A stretch of 42,117 bases of DNA from an uncultured Sphingomonadales bacterium (GTDB lineage: Bacteria; Pseudomonadota; Alphaproteobacteria; Sphingomonadales; Sphingomonadaceae). A program made the position numbers and the translations under genes. The notes beneath the pieces were generated by a model. The model was given only the letters and a program-made list of their open reading frames with translations. It was not told the DNA's origin and made no database searches. Shown piece by piece: positions 1,409 to 39,850 of this stretch. The stretch is from contig CALMZE010000035.1 in NCBI GenBank assembly GCA_937870585.1, forward strand, positions 1 through 42,117, in the 5' to 3' direction. The first letter of the stretch is position 1, and every line of letters begins with the position of its first letter.

Positions 1409-1533
1409 AGATGGCAGTTCACTGCGCATTTTTGGCCCTGACAGTGTGATTGCGTCAACCCGGCGCATTGTGGTTTCGATCACTGCTCGCGGACCGAACT
1501 GCTTCGGCGTCACTGCTGGCAGGAGTCCGACGA

Positions 1534-7359: not shown

Positions 7360-7418
7360 CCTTTAGAGGCCGCACAGACCGCACCATTGCAGCGGCACTG
7401 GCAAGAGAGGCAATGAAA

Positions 7419-9018: not shown

Positions 9019-9113
9019 GTCCGGCTACGGTAGGCTGGATCGGGGTAAACCGCACCCCTCACATTCGGCATGCTGATTGCAATCACAAAATTGTGCGGGA
9101 GGAGGAGGCTCAT

Positions 9114-22144: not shown

Positions 22145-22200
22145 GTTCTTTGGTCCTTATGATCGGGAAATGAGGAAGGCGTCAGTAGCCAGGAACCCAT

Positions 22201-23379: not shown

Positions 23380-23409
23380 GTCCACCCTCGCGGTCATCTT
23401 ATATTGCAA

Positions 23410-25065: not shown

Positions 25066-25158
25066 GCAATCTGCCTTCATTTTGTCGCTGAAACAATCAG
25101 CTGATGGTGTAGATTTACAGATTTTGAAGTAGCCATAGGCCGCCCGGCGGCGGGGCCA

Positions 25159-25881
25159 TTACGGCTTGGCATGTGTAACCTTCATATTGCGGAAATGGGC
25201 AATCGTTCCGGTCTCAATCCACAGGCCGATTTGGCCGCGCCTGTCCGTGCCATGTTTCAGATCATTCACGAGCAAAACGGGATTAGCGCGACCGTCAAGA
25301 AACAGCCTCGCCGTCGCACCGCGAACGTCGATCTTCAGTTTCACCCAGCGGTCGGGTGCGATGTCGGCCGCAGTTTCGTAGCGTTCGGGAGCTTCGCGCC
25401 GAAGCCGGTCAAATCGGAAATCGGGGAAAGCGGCATATTGCACACTATGATTTCGCCGGACCATATCATCGACGATGCCATTGGCCGGACGCAGATAGAT
25501 CTTTTCGAACTTTCCGCCTGAAACACGAAACGCAATGCCGACAAAGCCGCGGGCGAACGCGGGAGCTGTTGGGTCGATGGCTCCCTTTACCTCGACCTCA
25601 ATCGTCCCATCCTTAAAATCGACGGGAATGAGGGCCATATAGTCGCGGTCAGACAGCGCCTCGCGTGCTGGATCCTGCCAGGCAGAGCGGGGAAGGGAGA
25701 CACGCAATCCTTCCTTGTCCTGTCTGACATCGACGCCCTTGGCCTCAACGTCGCGGACTGCCAGCGAAACGCGTCCGTTTACGCCATCGACCGCACGGGC
25801 AAACGCGGGTAACGAAGCAGTGGAGGTTAACAGGGCCGCAGTGAATGCGAGCCCTGTTATTTTGAGCGTCTTGATACGCAT
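25159..25881 (-). CDS. Secreted DUF1080 / LamG-like beta-sandwich protein
   Basis: This exported protein of 240 residues has a cleavable signal peptide (about 28 residues ending near AFA). The mature part looks like a concanavalin-type beta-sandwich: DGTIEVEVKG, FVGIAFRVSGGKFEKIYLRP, DRWVKLKIDVRGATARLFLDG and GQIGLWIETGTIAHFRNMKV are the repeated strands of 3-keto-disaccharide-hydrolase (DUF1080)-like or LamG domains. ATG 25881 is preferred; TTG 25911 would overlap the dehydrogenase stop. Such domains bind or process glycosides. Its place directly after the salicylaldehyde dehydrogenase gene, in the same transcript, hints at an aryl-glycoside-related role. No catalytic residues can be named. 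Confidence 0.7.
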   Translation of the reverse strand: MRIKTLKITGLAFTAALLTSTASLPAFARAVDGVNGRVSLAVRDVEAKGVDVRQDKEGLRVSLPRSAWQDPAREALSDRDYMALIPVDFKDGTIEVEVKGAIDPTAPAFARGFVGIAFRVSGGKFEKIYLRPANGIVDDMVRRNHSVQYAAFPDFRFDRLRREAPERYETAADIAPDRWVKLKIDVRGATARLFLDGRANPVLLVNDLKHGTDRRGQIGLWIETGTIAHFRNMKVTHAKP

Positions 25882-25907
25882 GAGACGATCAACTTCCGTG
25901 CGCAGGT

Positions 25908-27359
25908 TCAAACAGGATAGGGCTGATCACTCGGTTCAATTGTCACCCATTTTAGCTCGGTGAATTCATCGATCACCGCACGGCCATCAAAACGCCCAAA
26001 GCCGCTGTTCTTCATGCCACCATAAGGGGCCTGCGGTTCGTTCGCCACAGTGGCGCCATTGACATGGACGTGACCCGCATCGATCTGGCGGGCGACATTG
26101 AACGCGCGGTGTGCGTCGCGACCAAATACGGCGGCGGCGAGTCCATATTCAGTGTCATTGGCTACGCGCACCGCTTCCTCGACGCCCTTAACGCGGACAA
26201 TGGTCGTGACAGGGCCGAAGGTTTCCTCGTCATAGATAGTCATGCCGGGTTTGACATGATCGACAATGGTGGCGGGCATGACTGCGCCGTCTGCCATACC
26301 ACCAACCACGATCTTCGCACCTTTGGCCATCGCATCCTCCACCATGGCGTTGATCCGCTTGCCTGATCCCGCATCAATCATCGGGCCGATAACGCAGCCG
26401 GGATTTTCCATGGGATCGCCAGCGGCCAGTTCGCTTGCACGTTTGGCAAATGCGGCAACGAATTCGTCGGCTACCGTTTCATCGACAACGAAGCGTTCCG
26501 TCGACATGCATATCTGGCCCTGATACAAGAATGTTCCGAAAATGGCCGCGTTTACGGCACTTTCAATATCCGCATCATCGAGAACGACGAAGGGCGCTTT
26601 GCCGCCCAGTTCAAGCAAACAACGCTTGAGATTGCGGCCAGACTTTTCTGCGATGATCCGCCCGATCCGTGTGGAGCCCGTAAAGTTGATGCGCCGGATG
26701 GCGGGGTGCGAAATGAGGCAATCAATCACCTCAGGCGCATCTTCCGGGGCATTGATGACGAAGTTCAAAACGCCTTCAGGCAGGCCTGCCTCGATAAAGG
26801 CTTCTGCAACTAGCAAGTGGGTCTTGGGGCTCATTTCAGAGGCGCGGAACACAACCGTATTGCCGCACGCAATTGGATAAGCAATCGCGCGGCAGGCTAG
26901 GATAATCGGGCCATTCCAAGGGACGATGCTCAAGCAGGCACCCACAGGCTGACGTAGTGTCATCGACAATGTGTCGGGTTTGTCGGTCGGGATGGTTTCG
27001 CCTTGAATCTGGGTGGTGAGAGACGCAGCTTCGCGGATGAGCCCCGCAGCGGCCGTGACGTTGAAACCGCCCCATAGACCGGATGCGCCAATTTCCGACG
27101 CCATCGCCTGGCAAATGTCACCGATTTTGGCTTCGAGATTGTCAGCAGCGGCCAGCAAAATCTTGCGACGTGCGGTTGGTCCTGTCTGAGACCAGCTTTT
27201 GAACGCTTCGCCAGCTGAAGTCGCTGCCCGATTCGCATCTTGTACACCGGCGGCGGCGGATTCGGTGATCACAATACCACTCACCGGATGCTTGCGTTCA
27301 AACACCTTGCTGTTTGCGGCATCAACCGACTGATTGTCGATAATCAACTGAACTTTCAT
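25908..27359 (-). CDS. nahF: Salicylaldehyde dehydrogenase (NahF-like)
   Basis: This NAD-dependent aldehyde dehydrogenase of 483 residues oxidises salicylaldehyde (and other aryl aldehydes) to the acid. Catalytic Glu250 is in LELGGK and Cys284 in GQICMSTERF; PWNG is at 147-150. From my memory of NahF of Pseudomonas, the catalytic pair has the same numbering, and the pocket residues Trp96, Gly150 and Arg157 are all present here. The N-terminal FERKHPVSG and the C-terminal GRFDGRAVIDEFTELKW also match that family. ATG 27359 has GGGGAG 6 bases upstream. It is divergent from the alcohol dehydrogenase / Rieske operon, with overlapping promoters. Vanillin or benzaldehyde dehydrogenase is the alternative reading. 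Confidence 0.87.
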   Translation of the reverse strand: MKVQLIIDNQSVDAANSKVFERKHPVSGIVITESAAAGVQDANRAATSAGEAFKSWSQTGPTARRKILLAAADNLEAKIGDICQAMASEIGASGLWGGFNVTAAAGLIREAASLTTQIQGETIPTDKPDTLSMTLRQPVGACLSIVPWNGPIILACRAIAYPIACGNTVVFRASEMSPKTHLLVAEAFIEAGLPEGVLNFVINAPEDAPEVIDCLISHPAIRRINFTGSTRIGRIIAEKSGRNLKRCLLELGGKAPFVVLDDADIESAVNAAIFGTFLYQGQICMSTERFVVDETVADEFVAAFAKRASELAAGDPMENPGCVIGPMIDAGSGKRINAMVEDAMAKGAKIVVGGMADGAVMPATIVDHVKPGMTIYDEETFGPVTTIVRVKGVEEAVRVANDTEYGLAAAVFGRDAHRAFNVARQIDAGHVHVNGATVANEPQAPYGGMKNSGFGRFDGRAVIDEFTELKWVTIEPSDQPYPV

Positions 27360-27447
27360 TGCATTCTCCCCAATCTCGGCCTCGTCTTTAGGGGCTGAAA
27401 TGCCCACGCATGAGTGCCATTCAATGTGATCCATCAGGATGGCGAGC

Positions 27448-27476
27448 ATTCTACATTGTAAAAGGTATTGCGTAAA
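27448..27476 (-). promoter_or_regulatory. Promoter for salicylaldehyde dehydrogenase operon
   Basis: On the minus strand, TTTACG (27476-27471) is followed after 17 bases by TAGAAT (27453-27448), a near-consensus -10. It lies about 90 bases before the dehydrogenase start and overlaps the plus-strand promoter. Confidence 0.45.
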
Positions 27477-27478
27477 AT
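27450..27478 (+). promoter_or_regulatory. Promoter for alcohol dehydrogenase / Rieske operon
   Basis: TCTACA (27450-27455), a 17-base spacer and TAAAAT (27473-27478) match sigma-70 elements at 4 of 6 and 5 of 6 positions. The -10 of this promoter overlaps the -35 of the divergent promoter, and the reverse also holds. Confidence 0.45.
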
Positions 27479-27488
27479 AAAATTTTAT
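27477..27488. promoter_or_regulatory. Palindrome ATAAAATTTTAT at the transcription start region
   Basis: This perfect 12-base palindrome overlaps the last bases of the plus-strand -10 and the expected start site. It is a candidate repressor or activator site controlling both divergent operons. AT-rich palindromes can also arise by chance. Confidence 0.35.
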
Positions 27489-27592
27489 GACAGCAGACCA
27501 GCAAGCGGGGATCACCAGCTGCGCCGTAGAATGGCATTACAAAGAAGCACCAGGCGGAAAAGCCGCGAGTCGCTTTCATGAGGAGGGAAGTC

Positions 27593-28720
27593 ATGGGAAT
27601 TCAGGAAAGTCGCATCATCAAGGCCGCCGTTTTTCGCGAGACGGGCAAGGCGCCCGTTATCGAGAATGTGACGATCGGCCAGCCCGCCGACGATGAAGTT
27701 CTGGTGCGCATTGTGGCAACCGGTATTTGCCACACCGACCTCTCCGTCCGCGATCAGTTGCTCCCCATGCCACTGCCTGCGGTTCTTGGCCATGAAGGCG
27801 GTGGCGTTGTCGAAGCCGTTGGCAGCAATGTCACCAATGTCGCGCTAGGCGACCATGTGATCATGAGCTACGCCTATTGCGGCTCGTGCGATCTTTGCCA
27901 TTCGGGCCATCCTGCTCATTGCGAGAATGTCTTGCCGCAATGCTTTGGCGGCAGCCGCGCAGACGGCTCCACGGGCATTACCGATTCCGCGGGCGCATTG
28001 GTCCATGATCATTTCTTTGCGCAATCGTCCTTTGCTGAATATTCGCTCGCGAACATGCGCAACGTGATCAAGGTGCCGAAGGACCTTCCGCTCGAACTGC
28101 TCGCACCGCTGGGCTGCGGGCTGCAAACCGGCGCGGGTGCGGTCTTGCAGGCGCTGAAGGTGAAGCCAGGCTCGTCGTTCGTGGCTTTTGGTCTTGGCGC
28201 TGTTGGCTTGGCGGCCATCATGGGGGCGAAGATTGCTGGCGCGACCAAGGTCATCGCCGTGGACATTAATCCTGAGCGTCTGAAGATGGCTGAAGAGATT
28301 GGGGCGACGCACACAATTAATGCCAAGGAAGCCGATCCGGTCGCCACAATTGGCGAGATCACGGGCAAAGGCGCAGATTTTGCGCTTGAGGCCAGCGGCA
28401 ATCCGGCTGTGCTTCGCCAGGCGATTGACTGCCTTGGCATTTTCGGGGTCTGCGGCATCGTGGGGGCGCCGGCTCTCGGGACTGAAGTCAATGTCGATGT
28501 CATGGGCGTGATGATTCCCGGCAAGATGGTGAAGGGTATCGTGCAGGGCGACGCTGTCTCCAGCACGTTCATTCCGTCTCTGATCGAGTTCTACCGCCAG
28601 GGGCGCTTCCCGTTTGACCGGCTGATCAAGCATTATGACTTTGCCGACATCAATCAGGCGATCGAGGACAGCGAGAGCGGAAAGACCATCAAACCAGTGC
28701 TGCGCATCGGCCAGCCCTGA
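27593..28720 (+). CDS. Zinc-dependent aryl (benzylic) alcohol dehydrogenase
   Basis: This MDR-family enzyme of 375 residues oxidises benzylic alcohols with NAD. The catalytic zinc ligands are in TGICHTDLS, GHEGGG and LGCGLQTGAGAV. The structural zinc lobe is YCGSCDLCHSGHPAHC with four cysteines. The Rossmann motif is GLGAVGLAA, with an NAD-type Asp in AVDIN. The layout resembles XylB-type benzyl alcohol dehydrogenases. ATG 27593 has AGGAGGGA at 27581-27588; the open frame from 27578 is less likely. The Rieske oxygenase genes follow 23 bases downstream. Beside a salicylaldehyde dehydrogenase, salicyl alcohol is a natural candidate substrate (inference). Confidence 0.9.
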   Translation: MGIQESRIIKAAVFRETGKAPVIENVTIGQPADDEVLVRIVATGICHTDLSVRDQLLPMPLPAVLGHEGGGVVEAVGSNVTNVALGDHVIMSYAYCGSCDLCHSGHPAHCENVLPQCFGGSRADGSTGITDSAGALVHDHFFAQSSFAEYSLANMRNVIKVPKDLPLELLAPLGCGLQTGAGAVLQALKVKPGSSFVAFGLGAVGLAAIMGAKIAGATKVIAVDINPERLKMAEEIGATHTINAKEADPVATIGEITGKGADFALEASGNPAVLRQAIDCLGIFGVCGIVGAPALGTEVNVDVMGVMIPGKMVKGIVQGDAVSSTFIPSLIEFYRQGRFPFDRLIKHYDFADINQAIEDSESGKTIKPVLRIGQP

Positions 28721-28743
28721 CACAGGCACATCGGAAGGGTTGC

Positions 28744-30003
28744 ATGAGCATGGCGAGCAATAAATGCGCCGTGGACGATCTGATGCGGGCGTCTTGGACG
28801 GATGACGGCTCAAGCCGGATCCCGTCCGCCGTCTACACGGATCGTGGCATTTACGAGCGGGAACAGGAGCGGATTTTCTATGGTCCGCACTGGAGCTATG
28901 TCGGCCTTGAGGTCGAAGTGCCCGAAGCGGGCTGTTTCAAGCGGACATCCATTGGCGAACGCTCGGTTATCATGATCCGCAACCGCAAGGGCGAGATCAA
29001 TGTTCTGGAAAATCGTTGCGCCCACCGTGCCATGCGGTTTTGCCAGGAGCGTTCGGGCAAGGTGAAGACGCTGGTCTGCCCCTATCACCAGTGGAACTAT
29101 AATTATGATGGCAAGCTGCTCGGCGTTCCGTTCAAAAACGGCGTGAAGGGCAATGGCGGCATGCCCCAGGATTTTCAGCTTGAGGACCACGGCCTCAACA
29201 CGCTGAAGGTCGCGGTCCGCAATGGCGTTGTTTTCGCCTGCTTCGATCACGAGGTCGAGCCGCTTGAAGACTATATCGGCGAGGAGATTCTCGCTTGCTT
29301 TGACCGGACGTTTGATGGGCGCAAGCTCACATTGCTTGGCTATTCGCGGCAACGCATTCCGGGCAACTGGAAGCTGATGATGGAGAACATCAAAGACCCC
29401 TATCATCCGGGTCTTCTCCACACCTGGTTCGTGACGTTCGGGCTGTGGCGTGCTGACAACAGTTCGCGCTTGTTGATGGACAAGCACGCCCGACACGCGG
29501 CGATGATTTCGCGGCGGAGCGATCAGGTGACGGGCAATATCGACGAAAACGTCACCAGCTTCCGCGCGAACATGCAACTGAACGAGCCTTTGCTGCTCGA
29601 TATCGTGCATGAACCCTGGTGGGGCAGCGACACCGTCTGCATGACGACGATCTTTCCCAACGTCATCTTTCAGCAGCAGGTCAATTCGCTCTCCAGTCGC
29701 CAGATCATCCCGCAAGGACCGGATTCGTTCGACTTTGTCTGGACCCATTTCGGCTTTGAAGATGACGACGAGGTGATGACGGAGCGTCGCTTGCGTCAGG
29801 CGAACCTGTTTGGACCTGCCGGATTCGTGTCTGCCGACGATGGAGAAGTAATCGAGTTCAGCCAGGAAGGCTTCCATCAGGACAAGGATTTTTCGACCTT
29901 GTGCGAGCTGGATGGCCGGGATGTCGGTTCCACCGACCACATGGTCACCGAGACGCTGATCCGCGGCATGTATCGCTATTGGCGGGGGGTGATGGAAGCA
30001 TGA
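28744..30003 (+). CDS. nagG: Rieske oxygenase alpha subunit, salicylate 5-hydroxylase (NagG)-like
   Basis: This is the large subunit (419 residues) of a ring-hydroxylating oxygenase. The Rieske [2Fe-2S] ligands are Cys92-x-His94 (CAHRAMRF) and Cys112-x2-His115 (CPYHQWNY). The mononuclear iron motif is NIKDPYHPGLLH, with His221, His226 and the bridging Asp218. The sequence around this motif (RIPGNWKLM, HTWFVTFGLWRAD) and the end (GPAGFVSADDGEVIEFSQ, TETLIRGMYRYW) match my memory of NagG, which hydroxylates salicylate to gentisate; anthranilate dioxygenases are the next closest group. Its stop overlaps the beta subunit start in ATGA. Ferredoxin and reductase genes are not in the window. Confidence 0.87.
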   Translation: MSMASNKCAVDDLMRASWTDDGSSRIPSAVYTDRGIYEREQERIFYGPHWSYVGLEVEVPEAGCFKRTSIGERSVIMIRNRKGEINVLENRCAHRAMRFCQERSGKVKTLVCPYHQWNYNYDGKLLGVPFKNGVKGNGGMPQDFQLEDHGLNTLKVAVRNGVVFACFDHEVEPLEDYIGEEILACFDRTFDGRKLTLLGYSRQRIPGNWKLMMENIKDPYHPGLLHTWFVTFGLWRADNSSRLLMDKHARHAAMISRRSDQVTGNIDENVTSFRANMQLNEPLLLDIVHEPWWGSDTVCMTTIFPNVIFQQQVNSLSSRQIIPQGPDSFDFVWTHFGFEDDDEVMTERRLRQANLFGPAGFVSADDGEVIEFSQEGFHQDKDFSTLCELDGRDVGSTDHMVTETLIRGMYRYWRGVMEA

Positions 30004-30476
30004 GCGTGCCTGCGGAACTGCGCCAGCGGATCACGGATCTCTATGCGGCCTATGCCGATTGCATCGACGCGGAACGCTTCGATGAATGGCCTGAATTCTT
30101 TACGGAAAACGGTTGGTATCGGGTTGTGGCCCGCGAGAACCATGATCGGGGTCTCCCGCTGAGCGTTTTGTCTCTCAAGGGCAAAGCCATGATGAAGGAC
30201 CGCGTGTACGGCATCACCAGCACTATCTTTCATGCGCCCTATTACCAACGCCATATCATCAGCGTGCCTGCTCTCACGTCTCTTGAAGATGGAGTGACGG
30301 CGGCATCAACCAACTATCTTGTGATCCGCACGAAGCGGGATATGGCGGCCGATGTCTATAATGTTGGCCGCTATATTGATGAAATTGTCGAGGAGGGTGG
30401 AGGCCTCAAATTTCGCAAAAAATTCTGTGTTTATGACAATGACCTTGTTCCAAATTCTCTGATTTATCCAATCTAA
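30000..30476 (+). CDS. nagH: Rieske oxygenase beta subunit, salicylate 5-hydroxylase (NagH)-like
   Basis: This is the small subunit (158 residues), a cone-shaped NTF2-like fold that supports the alpha subunit trimer and has no catalytic metal. Typical blocks are LYAAYADCIDAERFDEWPEFFTENGWY, RVYGITSTIFHAPYYQRH and the late KFRKKFCVYDNDLVPNSLIYPI. The ATG at 30000 overlaps the alpha stop by 4 bases, so the two are made in equal amounts. The next gene, a TonB receptor, starts 29 bases downstream, and no terminator is seen between them, so uptake and hydroxylation are probably co-expressed. Confidence 0.9.
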   Translation: MSVPAELRQRITDLYAAYADCIDAERFDEWPEFFTENGWYRVVARENHDRGLPLSVLSLKGKAMMKDRVYGITSTIFHAPYYQRHIISVPALTSLEDGVTAASTNYLVIRTKRDMAADVYNVGRYIDEIVEEGGGLKFRKKFCVYDNDLVPNSLIYPI

Positions 30477-30505
30477 ACGTCAATAATACTAACCTGGAGG
30501 GGATT

Positions 30506-33064
30506 ATGAAGACTCTATTGAATTCGGGCGTCGCCCGGATGTGCTTTGTTGTGGCCGCCGTTTTGGCGAGTTCGCCTGCACTTGCGCAAAATGCTGACGC
30601 CGATGAAGGTGGCATTCAGGAAATCGTCGTGACCGCGCAGAAGCGTTCTGAAAACGTCCAGAACGTGCCAATCGCGATTTCGGCTTTCAACGGTGAAGCG
30701 CTGGGTGAGCGCGCGGTGGGCAATGTCAGCCAGCTGGCGGCGCTGTCTCCTAACGTCAACTTGGACTCCGGCGTGTCGTTCAGTGCGTCGACAGCTGTGC
30801 TCGCGGCGTCAATTCGCGGCATCGGCGCGAGCGATTTTGCATTCAATATCGATCCTGCCGTCGGCGTCTATGTGGATGGCGTCTATCTGGCGCGCTCGGT
30901 TGGCGCGAACCAGGATTTGCTTGACGTCGAACGCATCGAAATCCTGAAAGGCCCGCAGGGCACGCTGTTTGGTCGCAACACCATCGGTGGTGCGGTTTCC
31001 ATCGTGACGCGCGATCCCGGCAAGGAGTTCAGCGTCCGTGGCGATCTGACGATGGGCCGGTTCAACCTGTTCCAGGCGCGCGCATCGGTTGACGTGCCAT
31101 TGGCTGAGAATCTGTATTCAAACTTCACAGTCGATGTGAAAACCCGCAACGGCTACATGAAGCGCTTGCCCTTTCCGGGTTCGATTACGGCAAACTCGCC
31201 CCCTTATACCGTTTATCCTGCCGCTGCATATGACTCGCCTTCGCGTGAAGGGGACGAGAGCAACCGCACATTCCGCGGCAAACTGAAATATGATGGCGGA
31301 TCATACCGCCTCACGCTGTCCGGCGATTATGCCTATACCGAAGGCACTGCGCCGACCAAGCTGTTGCAGACAACCAATGGCGATCCGGGCGGCTTGTTCG
31401 GCAATCTCTATAATCTGTGTATTAGCACGCCTGTCGCGGACTTGACCGCCATCGGCCTGATTAACATGTGCAACTCATCGGGGACGCAGTTGCCGTCACG
31501 CCATCGCGATCAGACATTCCCAGTGAACCGACTCTATACGCTTGCAGGCGTGAATGCAGATGCAAACCCCAATAACGATCTTTTGCCCTGGGATAATCGC
31601 TTCATCACCAATGATCGCGACACAACCTACGCGACGGGCAACAACTTTTCCCGCCTGCGTAACTGGGGTTTTACCGGCATTGCCGAAGTGGATGTTAGCG
31701 ACAATGCACTGCTCAAGTCGATCACATCCTATCGTAAGAGCTACTGGGTCAGTGGGCTCGATGGCGATGGTTCGCCCGTCAACATGTCCACCTACAGCTT
31801 CAGGCAGCGGCAGCAGCAGTTCAGTCAGGAATTGCAACTGGTTGGCAATGCTATGGACGAAAAGCTCAATTATGTCCTTGGCGGCTATTTCTTCCGCGAG
31901 TCCGGCTTCCTTGCTGACTATGTTATCTCCGGCGAAGGCATCTACGTCATTGATGGTCCGAACTGGCTCAAGACCAACGCCTATGCGGCTTTCGGCCAGG
32001 TCGATTTCCGGGCAAGCGACCTGATCGGCTTCACCGTAGGCGCGCGCTACACCAAGGAGAGCAAGAGTTTTGAAGGTGGGCAGCAGGAACTGAGTGGCCT
32101 GTTCTATAAGCTTGCTGGGGCACCCTGTTCTGATCTGGCCGGAAACATCTTCCCCAACGCTGTCCTTCCAAATGGACAGACCTGTCGGGTTGCCAACAAC
32201 TATCCTGATCCAAACAATCCTCTGCGCATCTATCCGGGAGGGATCAATCATCAGAGCTTCAACAACTTCTCTCCGAAGGTCGGCGTCCAAATCCACCCGT
32301 CGGATGACGTGATGGTTTATGGCTCGTGGTCGAAGGGTTACAAGACCGGAGGCTGGACCACGCGTTACTCAACGCCGCAGACCTTTGTCAGCAGCTTCGA
32401 TCCTGAAAAGGCCACAACCTACGAACTGGGCTTAAAGTCGACGCTTCTTGATCGCCGCCTTCAGGTCAATGCCGCCTTGTTCTATACCGATTACAACGCA
32501 ATTCAGTTGAATTATCAGGTTGGCGGGTCGCCGACGATCGCCAACGTTGGTGATGGCCGGATTAAAGGTGCTGAGCTGGAAATCACCGCCCAGCCGACGC
32601 GAGCTCTGACGCTCAACTTTGCGCTTGGCTACACTGATGCCTATTACACCAATCTCGATGCAGCGGTGGCTGTAACGAGCGGTCCCAGTGCCTTGCAGGC
32701 TGGCGCCGTGGTCGGCAGTGTGTTGCCCAAGACACCGAAGTGGAAGATCAACTTCAGCCCGCGCTATGAAATTGAATTGGGCAATGGCGGCTCCGTGACA
32801 TTGCTCGGCGACTATACGTTCATCTCGAAGCAGACGAATAATGTGGAGCGCACCTTTGCGCTCAACCGCCCTTCGGTTTCGATCCTGAACGCCAGTATTT
32901 CGTATAAGGATCCGTCAGATCACTATACGTTCACTCTTGGTGGCACCAATTTGACCAACAAGCGGTATCTGGCTTCGGGCACTGCCATCCCAGCATTCGG
33001 CGCCATTATCGGCACCTACAGCCGACCAGTCGAATGGTATGCACGCCTTGGCTTCAAATTTTAA
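30506..33064 (+). CDS. TonB-dependent outer-membrane receptor (2)
   Basis: This receptor has 852 residues. The signal peptide ends near ALA-Q (about residue 27). A TonB-box-like QEIVVTAQKRSENVQNVP is followed by the plug with SIRGIGASD, GVYVDGVYLAR and RIEILKGPQGTLFGRNT, and by a long barrel closing in RLGFKF. GGAGGGG lies just before the ATG. As the last gene of the alcohol dehydrogenase / Rieske operon, it is the prime candidate for import of a salicyl compound or its glycoside. It is distinct from receptor 3 downstream, with a longer barrel and additional loops. Confidence 0.93.
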   Translation: MKTLLNSGVARMCFVVAAVLASSPALAQNADADEGGIQEIVVTAQKRSENVQNVPIAISAFNGEALGERAVGNVSQLAALSPNVNLDSGVSFSASTAVLAASIRGIGASDFAFNIDPAVGVYVDGVYLARSVGANQDLLDVERIEILKGPQGTLFGRNTIGGAVSIVTRDPGKEFSVRGDLTMGRFNLFQARASVDVPLAENLYSNFTVDVKTRNGYMKRLPFPGSITANSPPYTVYPAAAYDSPSREGDESNRTFRGKLKYDGGSYRLTLSGDYAYTEGTAPTKLLQTTNGDPGGLFGNLYNLCISTPVADLTAIGLINMCNSSGTQLPSRHRDQTFPVNRLYTLAGVNADANPNNDLLPWDNRFITNDRDTTYATGNNFSRLRNWGFTGIAEVDVSDNALLKSITSYRKSYWVSGLDGDGSPVNMSTYSFRQRQQQFSQELQLVGNAMDEKLNYVLGGYFFRESGFLADYVISGEGIYVIDGPNWLKTNAYAAFGQVDFRASDLIGFTVGARYTKESKSFEGGQQELSGLFYKLAGAPCSDLAGNIFPNAVLPNGQTCRVANNYPDPNNPLRIYPGGINHQSFNNFSPKVGVQIHPSDDVMVYGSWSKGYKTGGWTTRYSTPQTFVSSFDPEKATTYELGLKSTLLDRRLQVNAALFYTDYNAIQLNYQVGGSPTIANVGDGRIKGAELEITAQPTRALTLNFALGYTDAYYTNLDAAVAVTSGPSALQAGAVVGSVLPKTPKWKINFSPRYEIELGNGGSVTLLGDYTFISKQTNNVERTFALNRPSVSILNASISYKDPSDHYTFTLGGTNLTNKRYLASGTAIPAFGAIIGTYSRPVEWYARLGFKF

Positions 33065-33086
33065 CTGAAGCCGAAACCCTCGAAAG

Positions 33087-33121
33087 GGCGATCCTGGTTT
33101 TGGCCAGGGTCGCCTATTTTC
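33087..33121 (+). terminator. Rho-independent terminator of the Rieske operon
   Basis: GGCGATCCTGG (33087-33097) pairs with CCAGGGTCGCC (33104-33114), with one wobble, around a 6-base loop; TATTTTCTT follows. It lies 23 bases after the receptor stop. Confidence 0.75.
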
Positions 33122-33134
33122 TTGCGGCATAAGA

Positions 33135-33188
33135 TTGACATATGAATATTAAAATGCAAATGCGGAGATGGCAATTGCACTATAGTGC
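33135..33188 (+). promoter_or_regulatory. Promoter region of TonB receptor 3 with palindrome GCACTATAGTGC
   Basis: TTGACA is at 33135-33140. A perfect 12-base palindrome GCACTATAGTGC lies at 33177-33188, 30 bases before the receptor ATG. Its centre, TATAGT (33181-33186), is a good -10 element in its own right, so a protein bound to the palindrome would block or remodel the promoter. Spacing from the TTGACA to that -10 is too long for one promoter, so either the -35 is weak and activator-assisted or the TTGACA serves another start. Confidence 0.4.
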
Positions 33189-33218
33189 CGATTCCACTGT
33201 TCGACGGTGAGACAGCAA

Positions 33219-35438
33219 ATGAGAAAGATTCTTCTGGCCGGAACAGCCGCAATGGCGTTTACGGTGGTTACGCCAGCGTTCGCACAACAAGACGCACAAG
33301 CAGATGATGCCGCAGAAACGGGCGATATTGTCGTTACTGCAACGCGCAGCGAAACGCTTTTGTCAAAGACGCCGATCGCGTTAACGGCGATTTCCGGCGA
33401 AGGCCTGCGAGATGCCGGTATCACCGATTCACGCGCCTTGACGGATATCGTCCCCAACTTGCAAATTAGCGAAAATGGCGATGGGGCACGCGTGTCGATC
33501 CGCGGCGTTACCAGCACTGACAACACCGAAAAGGGTGATCCTTCAGCGGCATTTCTGCTCGATGGTGTCTACATCGCTCGTCCGATTGAAGTGCTGAATT
33601 CGTTTTTCGATCTGGAGCGTGTTGAAGTACTGCGCGGCCCGCAAGGCACGCTGTTCGGGCGCAATACAACGGCTGGCGTGATCAACGTCATTTCAGCGCG
33701 TCCCAAGGCCGGCGAATTCCAAGCGTCAGGTGATGCAACATATGGCAATCTGGGCACGGTCAACGCCACGGGCATGATCAACCTGCCGGTTGGTGAAACG
33801 CTGGCGGTTCGCGCGGCAGTGAATTATGATCGTCAGGACAGCCCGATCATCCAAACCGGGGGTCCCATCGTAGAATCTCTGGACCCTTACCGTGACACTC
33901 TGTCTGGGCGTCTCTCATTTGGTGGCGAACTAGGCGACCGCTTCAAGTTCATCATTCGTGGTGATTACACGCAGGCGAAGGGTGGCGTTTACAACCTCCT
34001 TCCGTTGGGCAACTTCTTCCCAGATGCTGCCACGCCCAACCCGACGGTCAATCCGCGCTACACGCCCAACAAGGCGCGCTTGCAGCGCACTTTGAACATC
34101 CCGCTTCAGTTTGAAGACAAAAAGAATAACCGCTTCTGGGGCGTCGCTGGCGAGTTTTCATACGATTTTGGCGGTGTTGAGCTGACCTATCTCGGTTCGT
34201 ATCGAGAAACCCATCGTGATGACGATCGCGACTTTTTTGTCCTCGGTTTCCTGCATACCGACACCTACTTTTTCGGCGATTTCAAGCAGAACTCGCATGA
34301 AGTGCGGGCAGCGTTCGGCGGCGAAGGGCCGTTCAAGGGTCAGGTGGGCGGATATTACTTCAACGAAGAATCTACGCTTGAAGCGACCATTGGTCTTCCG
34401 TTCTCGGCCTTCGTTGTCGGACCGGGTCAACCTTTGAACTTCAATCAGACGGGTTTCGGCTTCCCTCAGGGGCCGACGAAGTCCACATCCAAGGCTGTTT
34501 TTGGTCAGTTCACCTATGATCTGACTCCGGAACTCCACCTCACGGCTGGCGCGCGCTACACCAAAGATGCAAAATCCCGTGTTGGCGCAACGATCCTTGA
34601 CTTTAACTCGGTGGCCAACAGCTTCTGCGGAGCGCTGCGTTGCGTGCTCAACGAAAATATTGCGGCCCGCAAGTATAGCAAAACGACGTGGAAGGTTGGG
34701 ATCGACTATGATGCTCCAGGTCTCGGCTTGGTCTATGCCAATGTGTCGACCGGCTACAAGGCTGGCGGGTTCAACGATGGATGTGAAACCGGCCAGGGCG
34801 TCGGTTGTTCGCTCCTGGCAACGGACCTGTACTATAGTCCGGAAACACTGACAGCTTATGAAGGTGGGTTCAAGCTGCGCTTTGCCGACAATGCGGTCCG
34901 CTTGAACGCGTCTATTTTCCACTATGATTACAAGGGCCTGCAACTGAGCCAGATCTGCTGCAGCCCGCCGCAGACACTGACGAAGAACGCGGCGGCGGCC
35001 AAGGTCGATGGGGTCGAGCTGGAAGCTGTGCTCCGCCCGAGTGACAATGACCAGGTCGACGTGGGCTTCACATGGCTGGACGCGCGTTATTCGAAATTCT
35101 TCCCGGATACGGCTAACCGCCCGACGTTCAGCTTCAATGGTCGCCCGCTTGATCACGCGCCGAAATATACTGCAAGTGCAGGCTATACCCACACGTTCAA
35201 CTTGGGGAATGGCGGGAAGGTTGACGCCTCTGTCCGCACGCGCTTGAGTGCTGCCTATTTCATGCAGGATCTCAACAACCTGTCACAGTTCCGTCAGCCG
35301 TCCTTCACAAAGACAGGCGCAACGTTGACCTATAAGGCTCCGGATGACCGGTATTACATTCAGGGCTACGTGCAGAATATTGAAAATGAAATTACGCTTG
35401 CTGCGCGGCCGCATCCGGCCTTGCCGGTGGTGTTGTAA
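33219..35438 (+). CDS. TonB-dependent outer-membrane receptor (3), C-terminus altered by frameshift
   Basis: As read, this receptor has 739 residues: signal peptide (to about AFAQ), GDIVVTATRSETLLSKTP as TonB box, plug with SIRGVTSTD, FLLDGVYIAR and RVEVLRGPQGTLFGRNT, then the barrel. It ends in PALPVVL without the aromatic C-terminal residue needed for barrel insertion. One base more near 35403-35405 would continue in another frame for 26 codons, ending EEPRTYGIRAGFKF at a TGA at 35483-35485, the normal end. So a one-base deletion (or read error) has removed the last strand. ATG 33219 is chosen over GTG 33207. It belongs to a separate transcript after the terminator at 33087. Confidence 0.9.
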   Translation: MRKILLAGTAAMAFTVVTPAFAQQDAQADDAAETGDIVVTATRSETLLSKTPIALTAISGEGLRDAGITDSRALTDIVPNLQISENGDGARVSIRGVTSTDNTEKGDPSAAFLLDGVYIARPIEVLNSFFDLERVEVLRGPQGTLFGRNTTAGVINVISARPKAGEFQASGDATYGNLGTVNATGMINLPVGETLAVRAAVNYDRQDSPIIQTGGPIVESLDPYRDTLSGRLSFGGELGDRFKFIIRGDYTQAKGGVYNLLPLGNFFPDAATPNPTVNPRYTPNKARLQRTLNIPLQFEDKKNNRFWGVAGEFSYDFGGVELTYLGSYRETHRDDDRDFFVLGFLHTDTYFFGDFKQNSHEVRAAFGGEGPFKGQVGGYYFNEESTLEATIGLPFSAFVVGPGQPLNFNQTGFGFPQGPTKSTSKAVFGQFTYDLTPELHLTAGARYTKDAKSRVGATILDFNSVANSFCGALRCVLNENIAARKYSKTTWKVGIDYDAPGLGLVYANVSTGYKAGGFNDGCETGQGVGCSLLATDLYYSPETLTAYEGGFKLRFADNAVRLNASIFHYDYKGLQLSQICCSPPQTLTKNAAAAKVDGVELEAVLRPSDNDQVDVGFTWLDARYSKFFPDTANRPTFSFNGRPLDHAPKYTASAGYTHTFNLGNGGKVDASVRTRLSAAYFMQDLNNLSQFRQPSFTKTGATLTYKAPDDRYYIQGYVQNIENEITLAARPHPALPVVL

Positions 35439-35512
35439 TTGAAGAGCCGCGCACATATGGAATTCGCGCTGGCTTCAAATTCTGACGTTCGTTGAGCAGT
35501 TGATAAAAGGGG

Positions 35513-35545
35513 AAGGGGCCGCTTCTTTGGGCGTGGCCCTTTTTC
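35513..35545 (+). terminator. Terminator after TonB receptor 3
   Basis: GGGCC (35516-35520) can pair with GGCCC (35535-35539) inside a larger AAGGGGCCGC ... GTGGCCCTTTTT arrangement; a run of five T bases ends the element. It follows the restored receptor stop (35485) and precedes the GH3 gene. Confidence 0.6.
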
Positions 35546-35589
35546 TGTATCCATCCTAAACATTAACATCGGTTGGAGAGGGGCGCACA

Positions 35590-37572
35590 ATGTCAGTTAG
35601 CAGATCGGTATCTTTGCTCGTATCCGTCAGCATTTTGGCGTGTGCATCATGGGCGGCCAGCGCCGCGACCAAATCGGCGAAACAGCCAATCGTGGAAAGC
35701 AGGGCGGTTCCGTTGATTGCCGCAGGAGATCTTCGGTTTCGGGATCTCAACCGAGATGGTCAGCTCAATCCCTATGAGGATTGGCGTTTGCCTCCCGAAA
35801 CGCGCGCCGCAGATCTGGTTGCACGGATGACATTGGCCGAAAAGGCCGGAACGATGATGCACGGCTCGATCCCCGGCATCGGCAATGTCGTCGGCTTTTC
35901 GACCGCAGGCTATGATGTGCCACTGTTTCGGCCAGACGTAACCGAGCGGAATGTGACGAGTTTCATCACGCGCCTCGCGGTCGGTCCGCGCCGGATGGCG
36001 GAGGAAAACAACAAGCTTCAGGAAATCGCCGAGGGAACGCGCCTTGGCATACCGCTGACAATCAGCACCGATCCGCGGCATCATTTCCAGTTCATCCTGG
36101 GCGCCAGCAGCATGGGCGTGGGCTATTCGCAATGGCCGGAAACATTGGGCTTTGGCGCGCTGCGAGACACGAAGCTGATGAAGCGTTTTGCCGAAGTGGC
36201 GCGCAAGGAATATCGCGCCACGGGTATCCATCAGGCGCTTTCGCCACAGGCCGATCTGTTCACCGAACCACGCTGGGCACGCGGAACAGGAACATTCGGC
36301 TCCAGCCCGCTGGTCGTCCGCGATCTGGTGGCCGCTTATGTCGAGGGATTTCAAGGCAGTGCCAAGGGATTGCATCCTGACGGGGTGCTGACGGTTGTGA
36401 AGCATTGGGCGGCCTATGGGGCGACGCCTGAGGGCTGGGACGGTCACAATCACTATGGCCGCTTTGCAAAGGCGACGAACAAAAGCTTTGCTGCTCACGT
36501 CAAAGCGTTTGACGGTGCGTTCCGGGTCAAAGTGGCGGGCGTGATGCCCACTTACTCGATCGTGCAGGGGGTCTCGGTTGCGGGCAAACCGCTCGAACTG
36601 GTCGGGGCCGGGTTCAACGCGCAGCTGCTTCAGGACAAGCTGCGCAAGGAAAAGCGCTTTGGCGGCATCATCCTGTCCGATTGGGCGATCACCAATGATT
36701 GCACGGCAGAGTGCGTCACGCCGACTAAGCCGCAAGGACCGGAATCCATCGCCATGCCCTGGGGTGTTGAAAATTTGAGCGAGCTGGAGCGCTTCGCCAA
36801 AGGCATCAACGCCGGGATTGATCAGTTTGGCGGCGTAACCAACACGGGCATCATCGTTGAGGCCGTCAACAAGGGGCTGGTGAAAGAGGCACTGCTCGAC
36901 GCGGCGGCGAAGCGCGTTCTTGTGACGAAGTTCCAGATGCGGCTGTTTGAGAATCCCTATGTCGATCCGGAAGCCGCCGCGCAGTCTGTGGGCGCCGCTC
37001 AGGCGAATGACGAGGGATTTGCAGCACAGGCGGCATCACAGGTGCTTTTGAAGAACGATGGCATCTTCCCCCTCAAGGCGGGAGCGCGCGTCTGGCTGAA
37101 GGATATTGACGCAGCGGCCGCCCGGGAGCGCGGCCTTGTTGTCGTCGACAAGCCGGAAGAGGCCGATGTGGCGTTGGTCCGCGTGGGAACCCCCTCAGAA
37201 CGGCCGCATCCGTTCCACTTCTTCGGAAGCCGGCAGAATGAAGGGCGGCTTGATTTCCGCCCCGGCGAGGCCGGGCATGATTTGGTGAAGGACCTGAGCG
37301 GCAAGACCAAGGTCGCGCTGGCCCTGTTTGCAGATCGTCCCGCTGTTCTTGGCCCGGTGGAGCGCATGTCGAGTGCAATTCTGGTCAATTTCGGTGTGTC
37401 CGATGCGGCCTTGCTGGATGTCGCCACGGGACGTTTATCAGCAAAAGGACGGCTGCCGTTTGAAATGCCTTCGAGCATGGCAACGGTTGCCGCGCAGGAC
37501 CCTGCATTGCCTGATGATAGCAAACAACCCCTGTACCGCGCTGGCGCGGGCCTGACGACACGCAAGAAATAA
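35590..37572 (+). CDS. Secreted glycoside hydrolase family 3 (beta-glucosidase-like) with EF-hand-like loop
   Basis: This exported glycosidase of 660 residues has a signal peptide of about 26 residues. Residues 52-63 (DLNRDGQLNPYE) form a perfect 12-residue EF-hand calcium loop before the catalytic domain. The GH3 N-terminal barrel follows (LVARMTLAEKAGTM, then DPRHHFQF, VVKHWAAYG), with the nucleophile Asp about 364 in ILSDWAIT. The C-terminal sandwich begins near VLLKNDGIFPL. GGAGAGG lies before the ATG. It would release glucose or xylose from beta-glycosides. The downstream FHS sugar transporter begins 7 bases after the stop. Next to salicyl-degrading genes, aryl beta-glucosides such as salicin are attractive substrates (inference). 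Confidence 0.9.
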   Translation: MSVSRSVSLLVSVSILACASWAASAATKSAKQPIVESRAVPLIAAGDLRFRDLNRDGQLNPYEDWRLPPETRAADLVARMTLAEKAGTMMHGSIPGIGNVVGFSTAGYDVPLFRPDVTERNVTSFITRLAVGPRRMAEENNKLQEIAEGTRLGIPLTISTDPRHHFQFILGASSMGVGYSQWPETLGFGALRDTKLMKRFAEVARKEYRATGIHQALSPQADLFTEPRWARGTGTFGSSPLVVRDLVAAYVEGFQGSAKGLHPDGVLTVVKHWAAYGATPEGWDGHNHYGRFAKATNKSFAAHVKAFDGAFRVKVAGVMPTYSIVQGVSVAGKPLELVGAGFNAQLLQDKLRKEKRFGGIILSDWAITNDCTAECVTPTKPQGPESIAMPWGVENLSELERFAKGINAGIDQFGGVTNTGIIVEAVNKGLVKEALLDAAAKRVLVTKFQMRLFENPYVDPEAAAQSVGAAQANDEGFAAQAASQVLLKNDGIFPLKAGARVWLKDIDAAAARERGLVVVDKPEEADVALVRVGTPSERPHPFHFFGSRQNEGRLDFRPGEAGHDLVKDLSGKTKVALALFADRPAVLGPVERMSSAILVNFGVSDAALLDVATGRLSAKGRLPFEMPSSMATVAAQDPALPDDSKQPLYRAGAGLTTRKK

Positions 37573-37579
37573 GGAGCTG

Positions 37580-38863
37580 ATGATGGCTGGACCCATGCCC
37601 GGCGCGACCGCGTCAACGAACACGAGTGGCACCAATGCACCCCGCTCGCTTGTCGTGGGGGTGGTGGCGTTGTTCTTCATATGGGGCGGCCTCACCAGCC
37701 TCAATGACGTACTCATTCCCAAGCTGAAGGGACTCTTTTCGCTCACCTACACCGAGGCGATGCTGACGCAGTTCGCATTCTTCATGGCCTATTTCATTGT
37801 GTCGCTGCCTGCCGGATCGCTCATCGCGCGCGTGGGGTATCTAAAAGGGATCGTGATCGGGCTGGGAACGATGGCGATAGGCTGCCTGATGTTCATCCCC
37901 GCGTCGGGATCGGGCATCTATGCGACCTTCCTTGCAGCCCTGTTCGTGCTCGCGGCGGGCATCACCGTGCTGCAGGTCGCGGCCAATCCGCTGATCGCCA
38001 ATATGGGCAGTGCCGACACCGCCTCCAGCCGGTTGACGCTGGCGCAGGCGTTCAACTCGCTAGGCACAACGATTTTTCCACCCATCGGCGGCGCGATCAT
38101 TTTGGGCTCGATGGCTACTGTTGATCCTGAAGCGCTGGGTGCCACGGAAAAGGCAGCTTTCCTGACCCAAGAGAGTGCCATTATTGGCAATGCTTATCTG
38201 GTCATCGCGACCATCCTCGCGGTGATCGCGACCTATTTCTGGCTGAGACGTTCGCAATTGCCCAACACCCGTGAAGAGGCAACCAGCTTGGGCGGCGCGT
38301 TCGGCCTGCTTGCTCAGCCGCGCCTCGGCGGCGGTGTCGCCTCAATTTTCCTGTATGTGGGTGCGGAAGTCGCCATCGGCTCGATGCTTATCAACTATCT
38401 GGCGCAGCCCCACATCATGGGCGTGACGGAGCAGACGGCCGCTGGTCTCATCGCCCTTTATTGGGGTGGAGCCATGGTTGGGCGATTTATCGGCTCTGCC
38501 ATTTTGCGGATGGTGTCTCCGGGCCTTGTCCTCGCGCTTTTCTGTCTGGGCGCCGCCGGGCTCGCCACGCTCTCTGGCATGTCGACTGGTACCTTTGCCG
38601 GTTACACTTTGCTGGCTGTGGGGCTGATGAACTCGATCATGTTCCCCACCATCTTCTCGCTGGGCGTGGAAGGATTGGGAGACAAGACGCCGCAAGGCTC
38701 TGGCTTGTTGTGCATGGGCATCGTTGGCGGAGCGCTGATCCCGCTGCTGTTCGGCATGATTGCCGACCGGACGACCCTTGCCGCGGCATTGAGTGTGCCC
38801 GTGATCTGCTATCTTCTGATCGCAGCCTATGGATGGTCGTGCGCCAAGCGCGGACGCGCCTGA
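37580..38863 (+). CDS. FHS-family MFS sugar transporter (glucose/fucose:H+ type)
   Basis: This inner-membrane sugar symporter has 427 residues and about 12 membrane segments. Family marks are FFIWGGLTSLNDVLIPKLK in segment 1, LQVAANPLIANMG, and AQAFNSLGTTIFPPIGG, as in FucP and GluP proteins. AAGGAG lies 4-7 bases before the ATG. It overlaps the end of the GH3 transcript (7-base gap), so it is expected to import the sugar the glycosidase frees. A strong terminator follows at 38876. Confidence 0.9.
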   Translation: MMAGPMPGATASTNTSGTNAPRSLVVGVVALFFIWGGLTSLNDVLIPKLKGLFSLTYTEAMLTQFAFFMAYFIVSLPAGSLIARVGYLKGIVIGLGTMAIGCLMFIPASGSGIYATFLAALFVLAAGITVLQVAANPLIANMGSADTASSRLTLAQAFNSLGTTIFPPIGGAIILGSMATVDPEALGATEKAAFLTQESAIIGNAYLVIATILAVIATYFWLRRSQLPNTREEATSLGGAFGLLAQPRLGGGVASIFLYVGAEVAIGSMLINYLAQPHIMGVTEQTAAGLIALYWGGAMVGRFIGSAILRMVSPGLVLALFCLGAAGLATLSGMSTGTFAGYTLLAVGLMNSIMFPTIFSLGVEGLGDKTPQGSGLLCMGIVGGALIPLLFGMIADRTTLAAALSVPVICYLLIAAYGWSCAKRGRA

Positions 38864-38923: not shown

Positions 38924-39850
38924 TTACTGCGCGGAAGCAGGCTTCATAAGCCCCTGCATGTCCATCCAGCTCACAAACTGATCAAGCATGCCGGTCGTGG
39001 TTGTGCCCGGAACACCCATGTTGAAACCGTGGCCGCCGCGTTCATAGGCGTGCAGTTCCACTGGACGCTTGGCCGCCTTCCATGCCTCGACCAGCGGGAA
39101 GCCCATCGTCGGGAACAGCGGATCGTCGAAGGCAATTGCCGCAAACATGGGCGGAGCGTCAGTGCGAACGTCTGCCTTCGCTTGGGGTCCATAGATGTAC
39201 CCAAAGAAGTCCGGACCCTCGCCGGGCTTGGCAGCAACCACTGTGTTCAGCGACGTCATCGCCCCAGCTGAAAAGCCGATCATGCCCACCCGCTTGGGAT
39301 TGACGCCCCATTCCGCCGAGCGCGCGCGCACCATTGCCAGCGCGGCCAACGCGTCATCGGTTGACGGCGGATGCTGCAACGTTGGCTGTTTGGTAGGGTC
39401 TGCGATCCCTTCCATCGCCTTCTTGTTCATGAAGGCAAGGCTGGCGTCATTATCGACCGGGGTGGGCATGATCCGGTATTTGAGGACAAAGGCGGCAATG
39501 CCCTGCTTGGCAAGCCATCGCGCGACCTTCCAGCCTTCTGGTTCGATCGCGAGCAGCATATACGCTCCACCCGGTGCAACGATAACCGCAGCCCCAGTCG
39601 CCTTGCCAGCTTCTGGAAGGAACGGGGTGAGGGTAGGGCGGCTGACATTGCGGACGACCATATGCTCGCCATTATATTTCACCCAGGTTTCGCTGCTTGC
39701 TTTGCCGGGTGTCGCCTTGCCATAGAGCGGGATCGCATCCGGCTCTGCTGGCGGTGTCATGTTTTCAACTTTAGTCACGGCTTGCGCGAGAACTGGTGTG
39801 GCGCACAGCAGCGCAGTGCTTGCGGCGAATGCCCGTATAATCCGTTTCAT
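38924..39850 (-). CDS. Secreted alpha/beta hydrolase, acetyl-esterase / xylan-esterase-like
   Basis: This exported esterase of 308 residues has a signal peptide of about 23 residues ending in VLAQ. The oxyanion region is APGGAYM (about 92-98), the nucleophile is in GFSAGA (Ser about 194), the acid is probably in AFDDPLFP and the His is in GGHGFNMG. This layout fits the BD-FAE / acetyl-xylan-esterase-like group that removes acyl groups from plant sugars. AAAGGA lies 9 bases before the ATG. It is minus-strand, between the transporter terminator and a TonB receptor terminator, so it is probably expressed from its own promoter near 39860. It may deacylate glycosides for the GH3 enzyme (inference). 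Confidence 0.87.
   Translation of the reverse strand: MKRIIRAFAASTALLCATPVLAQAVTKVENMTPPAEPDAIPLYGKATPGKASSETWVKYNGEHMVVRNVSRPTLTPFLPEAGKATGAAVIVAPGGAYMLLAIEPEGWKVARWLAKQGIAAFVLKYRIMPTPVDNDASLAFMNKKAMEGIADPTKQPTLQHPPSTDDALAALAMVRARSAEWGVNPKRVGMIGFSAGAMTSLNTVVAAKPGEGPDFFGYIYGPQAKADVRTDAPPMFAAIAFDDPLFPTMGFPLVEAWKAAKRPVELHAYERGGHGFNMGVPGTTTTGMLDQFVSWMDMQGLMKPASAQ

Follow-up and report, generated by a model that had tools for sequence, protein, structure and literature searches.

We analysed a stretch of 42,117 nucleotides from an uncultured Sphingomonadales bacterium (GenBank assembly GCA_937870585.1, contig CALMZE010000035.1). This stretch, hereafter the window, is the whole of contig C35 of a 3.8-Mb draft genome (233 contigs, 96% complete). 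The subject of this study is a group of genes at 25159..38863, which a preliminary description had read as a possible system for using salicyl beta-glucosides such as salicin. Genes were called as open frames and assigned by Pfam and NCBIfam (TIGR) profiles against their cut-offs, and by their closest PDB sequences according to bit score. All the genes named in that description were found as open frames at the positions given, and the presence of the gene set in the window was confirmed. A benzylic alcohol dehydrogenase (ADH), the alpha and beta subunits of a salicylate 5-hydroxylase (S5H), two TonB-dependent receptors (TBDR2 and TBDR3), a GH3 family beta-glycosidase and an MFS transporter formed a co-directional run in which no gap was longer than about 150 bp. 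The gene content and its recurrence in other genomes (comparison loci and genomes carry L and G labels) suggested that the window probably holds an island of genes for breaking down salicyl alcohol beta-glucosides of the willow and poplar type, and probably also esterified forms of these.

Genes of the proposed aglycone and sugar halves

The aglycone half, comprising a benzyl-alcohol-type ADH, a NahF-type salicylaldehyde dehydrogenase (ALDH), a NagGH-type S5H and a set of gentisate genes, is a firm assignment at the level of sequence, and PDB matches upheld the three enzyme names given earlier. ADH (27578..28720, +) matched 5tnx with 471 bits, followed by the benzyl alcohol dehydrogenase 1f8f with 436 bits. 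ALDH (25908..27365, -) was closest to NahF (4jz6, 698 bits), and the next match, likewise named salicylaldehyde dehydrogenase, reached 532 bits. The S5H alpha subunit (28744..30003, +) contained both the Rieske and the catalytic Pfam domains and matched salicylate 5-hydroxylase 7c8z with 614 bits, against 314 bits for the runner-up. The beta subunit (30000..30476, +) was over the Pfam Ring_hydroxyl_B cut-off (36.8 vs 27, scored on the longer frame 29901-30476). S5H alpha shared 65.6% identity with the annotated NagG of Sphingobium JS3065, and the residues equivalent to NagG M257, Q316 and R323 were all kept in this alignment; Q316 is presumably also a residue of the NagG pocket. M257 and R323, the latter forming a salt bridge to the carboxylate, are named as pocket residues in an excerpt of PMC9060491.

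The gentisate genes lay on the same contig as S5H, at 9093-11477. They comprised a gentisate 1,2-dioxygenase (9093..10166, +; TIGR02272, 509.9 bits vs a cut-off of 442.1), an FAA hydrolase family protein (10163..10861, +; PF01557, 193 bits) and a maiA-type GST (10839..11477, +; TIGR01262, 244.2 vs 171.05). From their context, the last two were assigned as fumarylpyruvate hydrolase and maleylpyruvate isomerase. S5H is predicted to make gentisate from salicylate, and these genes would convert gentisate to fumarate and pyruvate.

In the sugar half, Pfam and TIGR01272 supported the GH3 enzyme, the FHS sugar transporter and the TonB receptors at the places first described. GH3 (35590..37572, +) exceeded the Pfam cut-offs for both its N- and C-terminal domains, and its best PDB match was 9ul7, named beta-glucosidase, with 381 bits; no NCBIfam GH3 equivalog was found at its cut-off. 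The SDW motif, whose Asp we take to be the GH3 nucleophile, and the C-terminal Glu (in FFG.R..EG) were conserved in four full-length relatives. The enzyme is predicted, on sequence grounds, to act on beta-D-glucosides. In its own genome, PF00933 matched three times at E<=1e-15, with one match lying in the window. The transporter (37580..38863, +), a glucose/galactose-type member of the FHS family, passed TIGR01272 gluP (265.9 vs 202.55) and matched FucP 3o7q with 190 bits. Export of GH3 and of a DUF1080-like protein, both called secreted in the preliminary description, was judged by eye from the N-terminal stretches, and that of GH3 was signal-like.

Both receptors of the run were recognised by Pfam. 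TBDR2 (30506..33064, +) had homologues with 72-83% identity in L027, L036, L028, L029 and L032. Relatives of TBDR3 (33207..35438, +) were found near type-A GH3 genes, the type in the window, in L125 and L126 (33-38% identity), and a further relative was present in Sphingobium YR768 (L192, 44%). By eye, a typical receptor ending (...AGFKF and stop; 33207-35485) was seen in another frame just beyond the stop of the TBDR3 frame, and the gene is therefore frameshifted near its end or the assembly contains an error there.

Recurrence of glucosidases beside the aglycone genes

Genome contigs were scanned with S5H alpha, and the best 80 of 187 relatives were kept and searched with the window proteins and the GH3s of L107 and L027. 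The thresholds were more than 70 bits for GH3 and at least 50% identity over 250 residues for ADH. GH3 was detected in four of these best 80 loci (L027, L028, L029 and L036). Three loci had ADH and GH3, one had ADH alone, one (L028) had GH3 alone and 75 had neither; no ADH is visible in L028 because the contig starts 44 bp before S5H. In the 53 loci where S5H had flanks of 7 kb or more in each direction, GH3 was present in three of four with ADH and in none of 49 without it (Fisher 1.7e-4, in a test that is not tree-aware and a table that keeps near-identical strains, two of the three ADH and GH3 loci). L027 and L036 belong to near-identical Sphingobium strains (YR768 and AP50) with GH3s 94% identical, so the effective number is smaller. 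These strains may come from Populus, although the literature search listed no paper on such a provenance.

The arrangement was also seen in other records. L028, a pond metagenome-assembled genome (MAG), kept the order S5H alpha/beta, TBDR2 and GH3 of the window, and its GH3 was 69% identical over the 289 residues present. Blastomonas L107, which lies outside the 80-locus scan, had both ADH and GH3. S5H and ADH occurred together in six genomes or records besides the window (L107, L029, L027, L036, L032/G171 and G031), and GH3 stood alongside in four of these, or in three of five with the near-identical Sphingobium strains counted once. A rough Poisson estimate, which counts YR768 and AP50 once, includes L028 and treats the genomes as independent, which is untrue for clusters of the same type, gave a chance of 3e-5 for GH3 near S5H in at least four of six other genomes and of 9e-7 for five of seven with the window. 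The preliminary description had drawn the link between the sugar and aglycone halves from position in one contig, and the recurrence of GH3 beside ADH, ALDH and S5H supports it.

The glucosidases themselves were of different kinds. In the Blastomonas plasmid, a second pond MAG and the two Sphingobium strains, the same ADH, ALDH and S5H genes had different GH3 types and different MFS transporters as neighbours. We distinguished types A (window and L028), B (L107 and L029) and C (L027 and L036), with pairwise identities of 23% (220 residues), 27% (394) and 29% (710). These low values suggest that the types were recruited separately to the same aromatic core, and the occurrence of three different types is a sounder argument than the chance estimates. 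Type A adjoined the FHS transporter. Type B adjoined another MFS, and the L107 enzyme passed the BglX equivalog (704.8 vs 666) with no signal peptide evident by eye. Type C had a signal-like start and stood beside a tannase/feruloyl-esterase-family protein and a Sugar_tr-type MFS. The predicted location of GH3 fits the transporter in both cases compared, a signal-like start with FHS in the window and BglX without a signal with another MFS in L107.

Three single markers were considered and rejected. Naphthalene-type loci L030 and L031 had an equally close S5H (83%) with neither ADH nor GH3, which agrees with the link between the two halves; S5H identity does not mark saligenin use. ADH was rejected since it occurred with benzoate genes in L137 and without GH3 in G531, G617, G618 and G624. 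The esterase at the window's end was rejected as a private marker, since a search at E<=1e-70 placed relatives in 50 of 397 family genomes, with the own genome among them; those in the other family genomes were at most 59% identical.

In the same sample of 397 family genomes, 19 had an S5H match at E<=1e-100, nine of them (own included) with an identity of at least 56%. For the remaining eight, about 20 kb on each side of S5H were read where the contig allowed (one side of G028, 3.4 kb); these stretches contained no GH3, and ADH was present in G031 and G171, the latter being the same contig as L032. An ADH search of 396 genomes of the order gave six matches at E<=1e-130: the own genome, G031 and four at 58-62% identity. 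In the own genus, S5H was present in two of 13 genomes, and the other one, G127, had no ADH or GH3 in the stretch read.

Proposed pathway and alternative explanations

The gene families and their recurrent linkage were observed directly, and from these we infer the substrates, cellular locations and order of steps. The glucoside would enter through the outer membrane by the TonB receptors, and the esterase would strip an acyl group where one is present. The exported GH3 would then cleave off glucose in the periplasm for uptake by the FHS transporter. Saligenin would be oxidised to salicylaldehyde and salicylate by ADH and the NahF-type ALDH, salicylate hydroxylated to gentisate by S5H, and gentisate converted to fumarate and pyruvate by the dioxygenase, the maleylpyruvate isomerase and the fumarylpyruvate hydrolase. 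The earlier interpretation as salicyl glucoside utilisation is supported. The island should be drawn larger than first described, with the gentisate genes (9.1-11.5 kb) and the esterase/TBDR4 pair (38.9-42.1 kb) added. Whether the two halves form one regulon, and whether the substrate is plain salicin or an esterified salicinoid, are matters of inference.

Several results weigh against an integrated island. The PDB relatives of GH3 include SN243, which we take to be a glucuronidase, and the family therefore does not fix the sugar. A conserved operator-like site of 25 bases (27465..27489), found in an alignment of seven intergenic stretches, lies in the divergent ALDH/ADH promoter and recurs near the ALDH and ADH of G031 (L110). 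A position weight matrix from five stretches (window, L107, L029, L027 and L032) reached at least 9 bits in the window only at this promoter and nowhere at GH3. The site therefore provides no link between GH3 and the aglycone genes, and a shared operator for both halves was rejected. Just behind TBDR2 stands a 13-pair hairpin whose tail is rich in T (33086-33115); terminator-like sites in the whole scan numbered 15, vs 18.9 in shuffles. TBDR2 had no match in L107. The ADH-bearing clusters of L032/G171 and G031 had no GH3 in the stretches read, and neither NagG-type S5H nor GH3 was found in the 16-20 kb read in G531, G617, G618 and G624, which have the 58-62% ADH (G617 also has a 74% ALDH); ADH alone therefore does not bring a glucosidase. 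In L112 a carboxylesterase-family gene follows ALDH, the one S5H locus with a GH1 match (L043) falls among the 49 loci without ADH, and clusters with the same GH3 type are related by descent. The electron supply of S5H is a further point: no Rieske match was found in a frame below 192 aa in the own genome (15 PF00355 matches; 96% complete), and the best of its three NagAa-like matches was 34% identical; candidate reductases lie on contigs C41 and C7.

These points bear on the explanation that two separate units are neighbours here, one a pathway from saligenin and salicylate to gentisate, the other a general module (TBDR3-GH3-FHS) for beta-glucan, xylosides or cellobiose. The hairpin behind TBDR2 and the lack of a shared operator agree with it, GH3 relatives occur in other contexts, such as next to a sulfatase in L127, cluster-bearing genomes contain between 3 and 14 PF00933 matches (one on the Blastomonas plasmid), and L032 and G031 carry aglycone genes with no GH3 nearby. 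However, three GH3 types recur beside ADH-type S5H clusters and none stands in the 49 loci without ADH, L028 keeps the S5H-TBDR2-GH3 order, and the rough chance of the co-occurrence, with shared ancestry ignored, is small; we consider two separate units unlikely. A different aglycone, such as that of benzyl alcohol, gentisyl alcohol or salicylate glucosides, with salicin incidental, is more doubtful still. Benzyl alcohol and benzaldehyde dehydrogenases are broad and also take salicyl alcohol and salicylaldehyde (excerpt of PMC9959693), but the ring oxygenase is of the NagG type with the carboxylate-binding Arg kept, the alcohol and aldehyde steps are both present and recurrent, and no benzoate-type oxygenase was found among the window genes scanned.

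Oxidative removal of the sugar as a 3-keto-glucoside, in which the DUF1080-like protein would be the lyase or hydrolase and GH3 would be secondary, appears very improbable. The preliminary description had included this protein (25159..25911, -) as DUF1080-like: the open frame is present at that place, while the family membership is doubtful (PF06439, 25.4 bits, under the cut-off of 26.8). Its longest frame has a TTG start and shares 4 nt with the ALDH frame, and G164 has a 60% homologue at a distance of about 10 kb from ADH and ALDH, which would agree with this route; nevertheless, no sugar 3-dehydrogenase family was found among the window genes scanned, the protein had no match at 100 bits in L107, L029, L027, L036 and L032, and its gene lies inside a stretch missing between maiA and ALDH in L107 and L029. 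A single-sequence structure prediction was uninformative (mean pLDDT 30.5), and the G125 homologue adjoins shikimate-pathway genes, a peptidase and a TonB receptor, with no sugar genes in the ten frames scanned. This gene is the weakest part of the proposed system.

An island for salicyl alcohol glucosides would share parts with known systems. The nag-type operon for naphthalene via salicylate and gentisate (Sphingobium sp. JS3065 pNIN2, L108) has the same NagGH S5H, NahF-type ALDH, gentisate dioxygenase, FAH and maiA families, with identities to the window of 65.6% (S5H alpha), 46.7% (beta), 63.1% (ALDH), 33.3% (dioxygenase), 52.6% (FAH) and 48.5% (maiA). In contrast, the window has the benzylic alcohol dehydrogenase where nag has its naphthalene dioxygenase part, adds the glucosidase, esterase and TonB receptors, and showed no NagAa or NagAb among the genes scanned. 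The bgl operon (beta-glucoside phosphotransferase system (PTS) and 6-phospho-beta-glucosidase) would resemble the island in releasing salicyl alcohol from salicin and consuming the glucose; no BglG antiterminator, BglF PTS or BglB phospho-glucosidase was found among the window genes scanned, which have GH3 and FHS instead. Salicin assimilation as such is a common test phenotype, and the novelty therefore lies in the joined island and not in salicin use. The preliminary description knew of no island joining all these steps, and among the matches listed for salicin, salicortin and phenolic glycosides the titles and abstract starts, mostly from outside the subscription journals, named no single-organism island.

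The published reports, as far as their excerpts go, describe salicin use as split between sugar-taking and aglycone-taking species (PMC9959693 and PMC11708038). Salicin was shared between Rahnella (bgl) and Pseudomonas in co-culture, with the aglycone secreted by one and consumed by the other species (PMC9959693), whereas the window joins the aglycone genes in the island. A Populus Pseudomonas oxidises salicyl alcohol and grows on it, by a proposed route to cis,cis-muconate, and strain GM17 cannot degrade salicin and needs a second strain (PMC11708038, excerpt); the oxidation of salicyl alcohol and growth on it would be common to both, and the window differs by the predicted gentisate route and its own glucosidase. 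If the reading is true, a self-contained island with the same aromatic core and different glucosidases would mean salicin mineralisation by a single strain. ADH, S5H, glucosidase and esterase/TBDR would then form a marker set by which such bacteria could be traced near willow and poplar, and the island would supply candidate enzymes for esterified salicinoids. Salicinoids as a group are reported to exceed 15% of poplar leaf dry weight (PMC12745818, excerpt).

Flanking genes and looser cases

Downstream of the transporter, a secreted-type Abhydrolase_3 esterase (38924..39850, -; signal-like N-terminus by eye; 60-68% identical in L107, L029, L027 and L036) is paired with TBDR4 (39971..42115, -; Pfam; 60-80% in the same loci), which is cut by the contig end. 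The L107 esterase had a 63% relative on a Novosphingobium RL4 plasmid. At the other end lie an SDR (4421-5206, -; Pfam), a CoA-transferase III (5203-6456, -; Pfam; best PDB match succinate-HMG CoA-transferase 9br7, 161 bits) and a MaoC-like hydratase (6401-7258, -; under the Pfam cut-off; best PDB match itaconyl-CoA hydratase 8khg, 78 bits), a possible module for a second acid moiety. Both the esterase/receptor pair and this module recur in most ADH-bearing clusters, which makes esterified salicinoids a possible natural substrate of the island. All three module genes were present in L107, L032 and YR768 (L192), and CoA-transferase and MaoC-like genes in L029, whose stretch begins at these genes. 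No match to the module was found in the stretches of L030, L031 and L033, and none at 40% identity in G031. HCC is the unstable toxic moiety of salicortin and tremulacin (excerpt of PMC12745818), and our guess from sequence is that the module handles the HCC moiety of salicortin. It is a tentative further proposal, which we rate as less likely than not by a wide measure, that acylated salicinoids such as salicortin are mineralised by one island. Here TBDR4 and the esterase would serve uptake and deacylation, GH3 would release glucose, saligenin would go to gentisate, and a CoA-transferase/MaoC/SDR/VOC module would take 1-hydroxy-6-oxocyclohex-2-ene-1-carboxylate, sphingomonads having built such islands several times with unrelated glucosidases.

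The remaining genes of this flank were an IclR-type regulator (322..1332, +; Pfam IclR_C/HTH_IclR; 54-65% homologues in L107, L029, L027, L036 and L032), a VOC/glyoxalase-family protein (1450..1959, +; Pfam Glyoxalase; 56-87% in L107, L029, L027 (partial) and L032), an alpha/beta hydrolase (7413..8096, +; Pfam Abhydrolase_6; 50-54% relatives in L107 and L029) and a second IclR-type regulator (8193..8966, +; Pfam; TIGR02431, 75 bits, under cut-off). The second regulator had relatives of 66-73% identity in L107, L029, L027, L036 and L110, and of 55% also in the naphthalene-type L030 and L031. Between maiA and ALDH, about 14 kb (11478-25907) contained SDRs, a P450 preceded by a ferredoxin-like frame, a TonB receptor, AraC, SnoaL, an epoxide hydrolase, a beta-lactamase-type esterase and the DUF1080-like gene (some calls by eye). 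In L107 (Blastomonas pBSY18_2) and L029 (the second pond MAG), gentisate dioxygenase, FAA hydrolase and maiA directly adjoin ALDH-ADH-S5H; the stretch missing there is apparently an inserted catabolic module. The annotated record of the Blastomonas sp. RAC04 plasmid otherwise has nearly the order of the window (SDR, CoA-transferase, MaoC-like, VOC, IclR, hydrolase, IclR, gtdA, FAH, maiA, ALDH, ADH, S5H alpha/beta, esterase and TBDR4). It differs by its BglX-type GH3 and other MFS in place of type-A GH3 and FHS, and by the absence of TBDR2.

Looser combinations were seen elsewhere. YR768 has CoA-transferase, MaoC, SDR, VOC and a TBDR3-like receptor farther away on the same contig, besides two more GH3 regions. 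G164, which is not among the 19 S5H matches of the family sample, has ADH (65%) and ALDH (72%) adjoining a GH1 with a signal-like N-terminus (PF00232; under the TIGR03356 cut-off), LigB, Abhydrolase_2 and DoxX. With a GH1 query, one of the 80 S5H loci, L043 of Zobellella endophytica, gave a match. Its bgl operon (L043:2391-11239; LicT/BglG 378.7 vs 300, BglF 958.7 vs 894, BglB 628.6 vs 623) and a porin-like gene lie upstream of a BenC-like reductase and S5H. No ADH was found in that stretch and no GH1 match in the sister species locus L039; one neighbour in 80 loci could be chance.

In Novosphingobium resinovorum pSA2 (L126:11995-15702), the ring-cleavage genes for 4-oxalomesaconate tautomerase and ligK have a type-A GH3 and a TonB receptor next to them. 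In Novosphingobium capsulatum (L125:4228-13890), type-C-like (66%) and type-A-like (56%) GH3s share one stretch with a TBDR3-like receptor. LigB dioxygenase, Abhydrolase_2 and DoxX lie near ADH and ALDH in Blastomonas (L107:1897-5855) and G164 (L184:2954-4746), and LigB also occurs in G031 (L110:4403-5212). The Blastomonas FUSC is 59% identical to FUSC of Agrobacterium and Rhizobium plasmids. These are L135/L140 (NZ_CP110833.1) and L138/L139 (NZ_CP115843.1), of Agrobacterium from quaking aspen and willow, and L136 (CP041205.1), of a soil Rhizobium. They carry ADH (60%), FUSC, DoxX and catechol ortho-cleavage genes, L135 also a NahF-like ALDH (67%), with a GMC oxidoreductase, a sugar-dehydrogenase small subunit and cytochrome c nearby; possibly these genes encode an oxidative salicin route. 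Both Agrobacterium plasmids continue with a LacI/sugar ABC/Gfo-Idh set.

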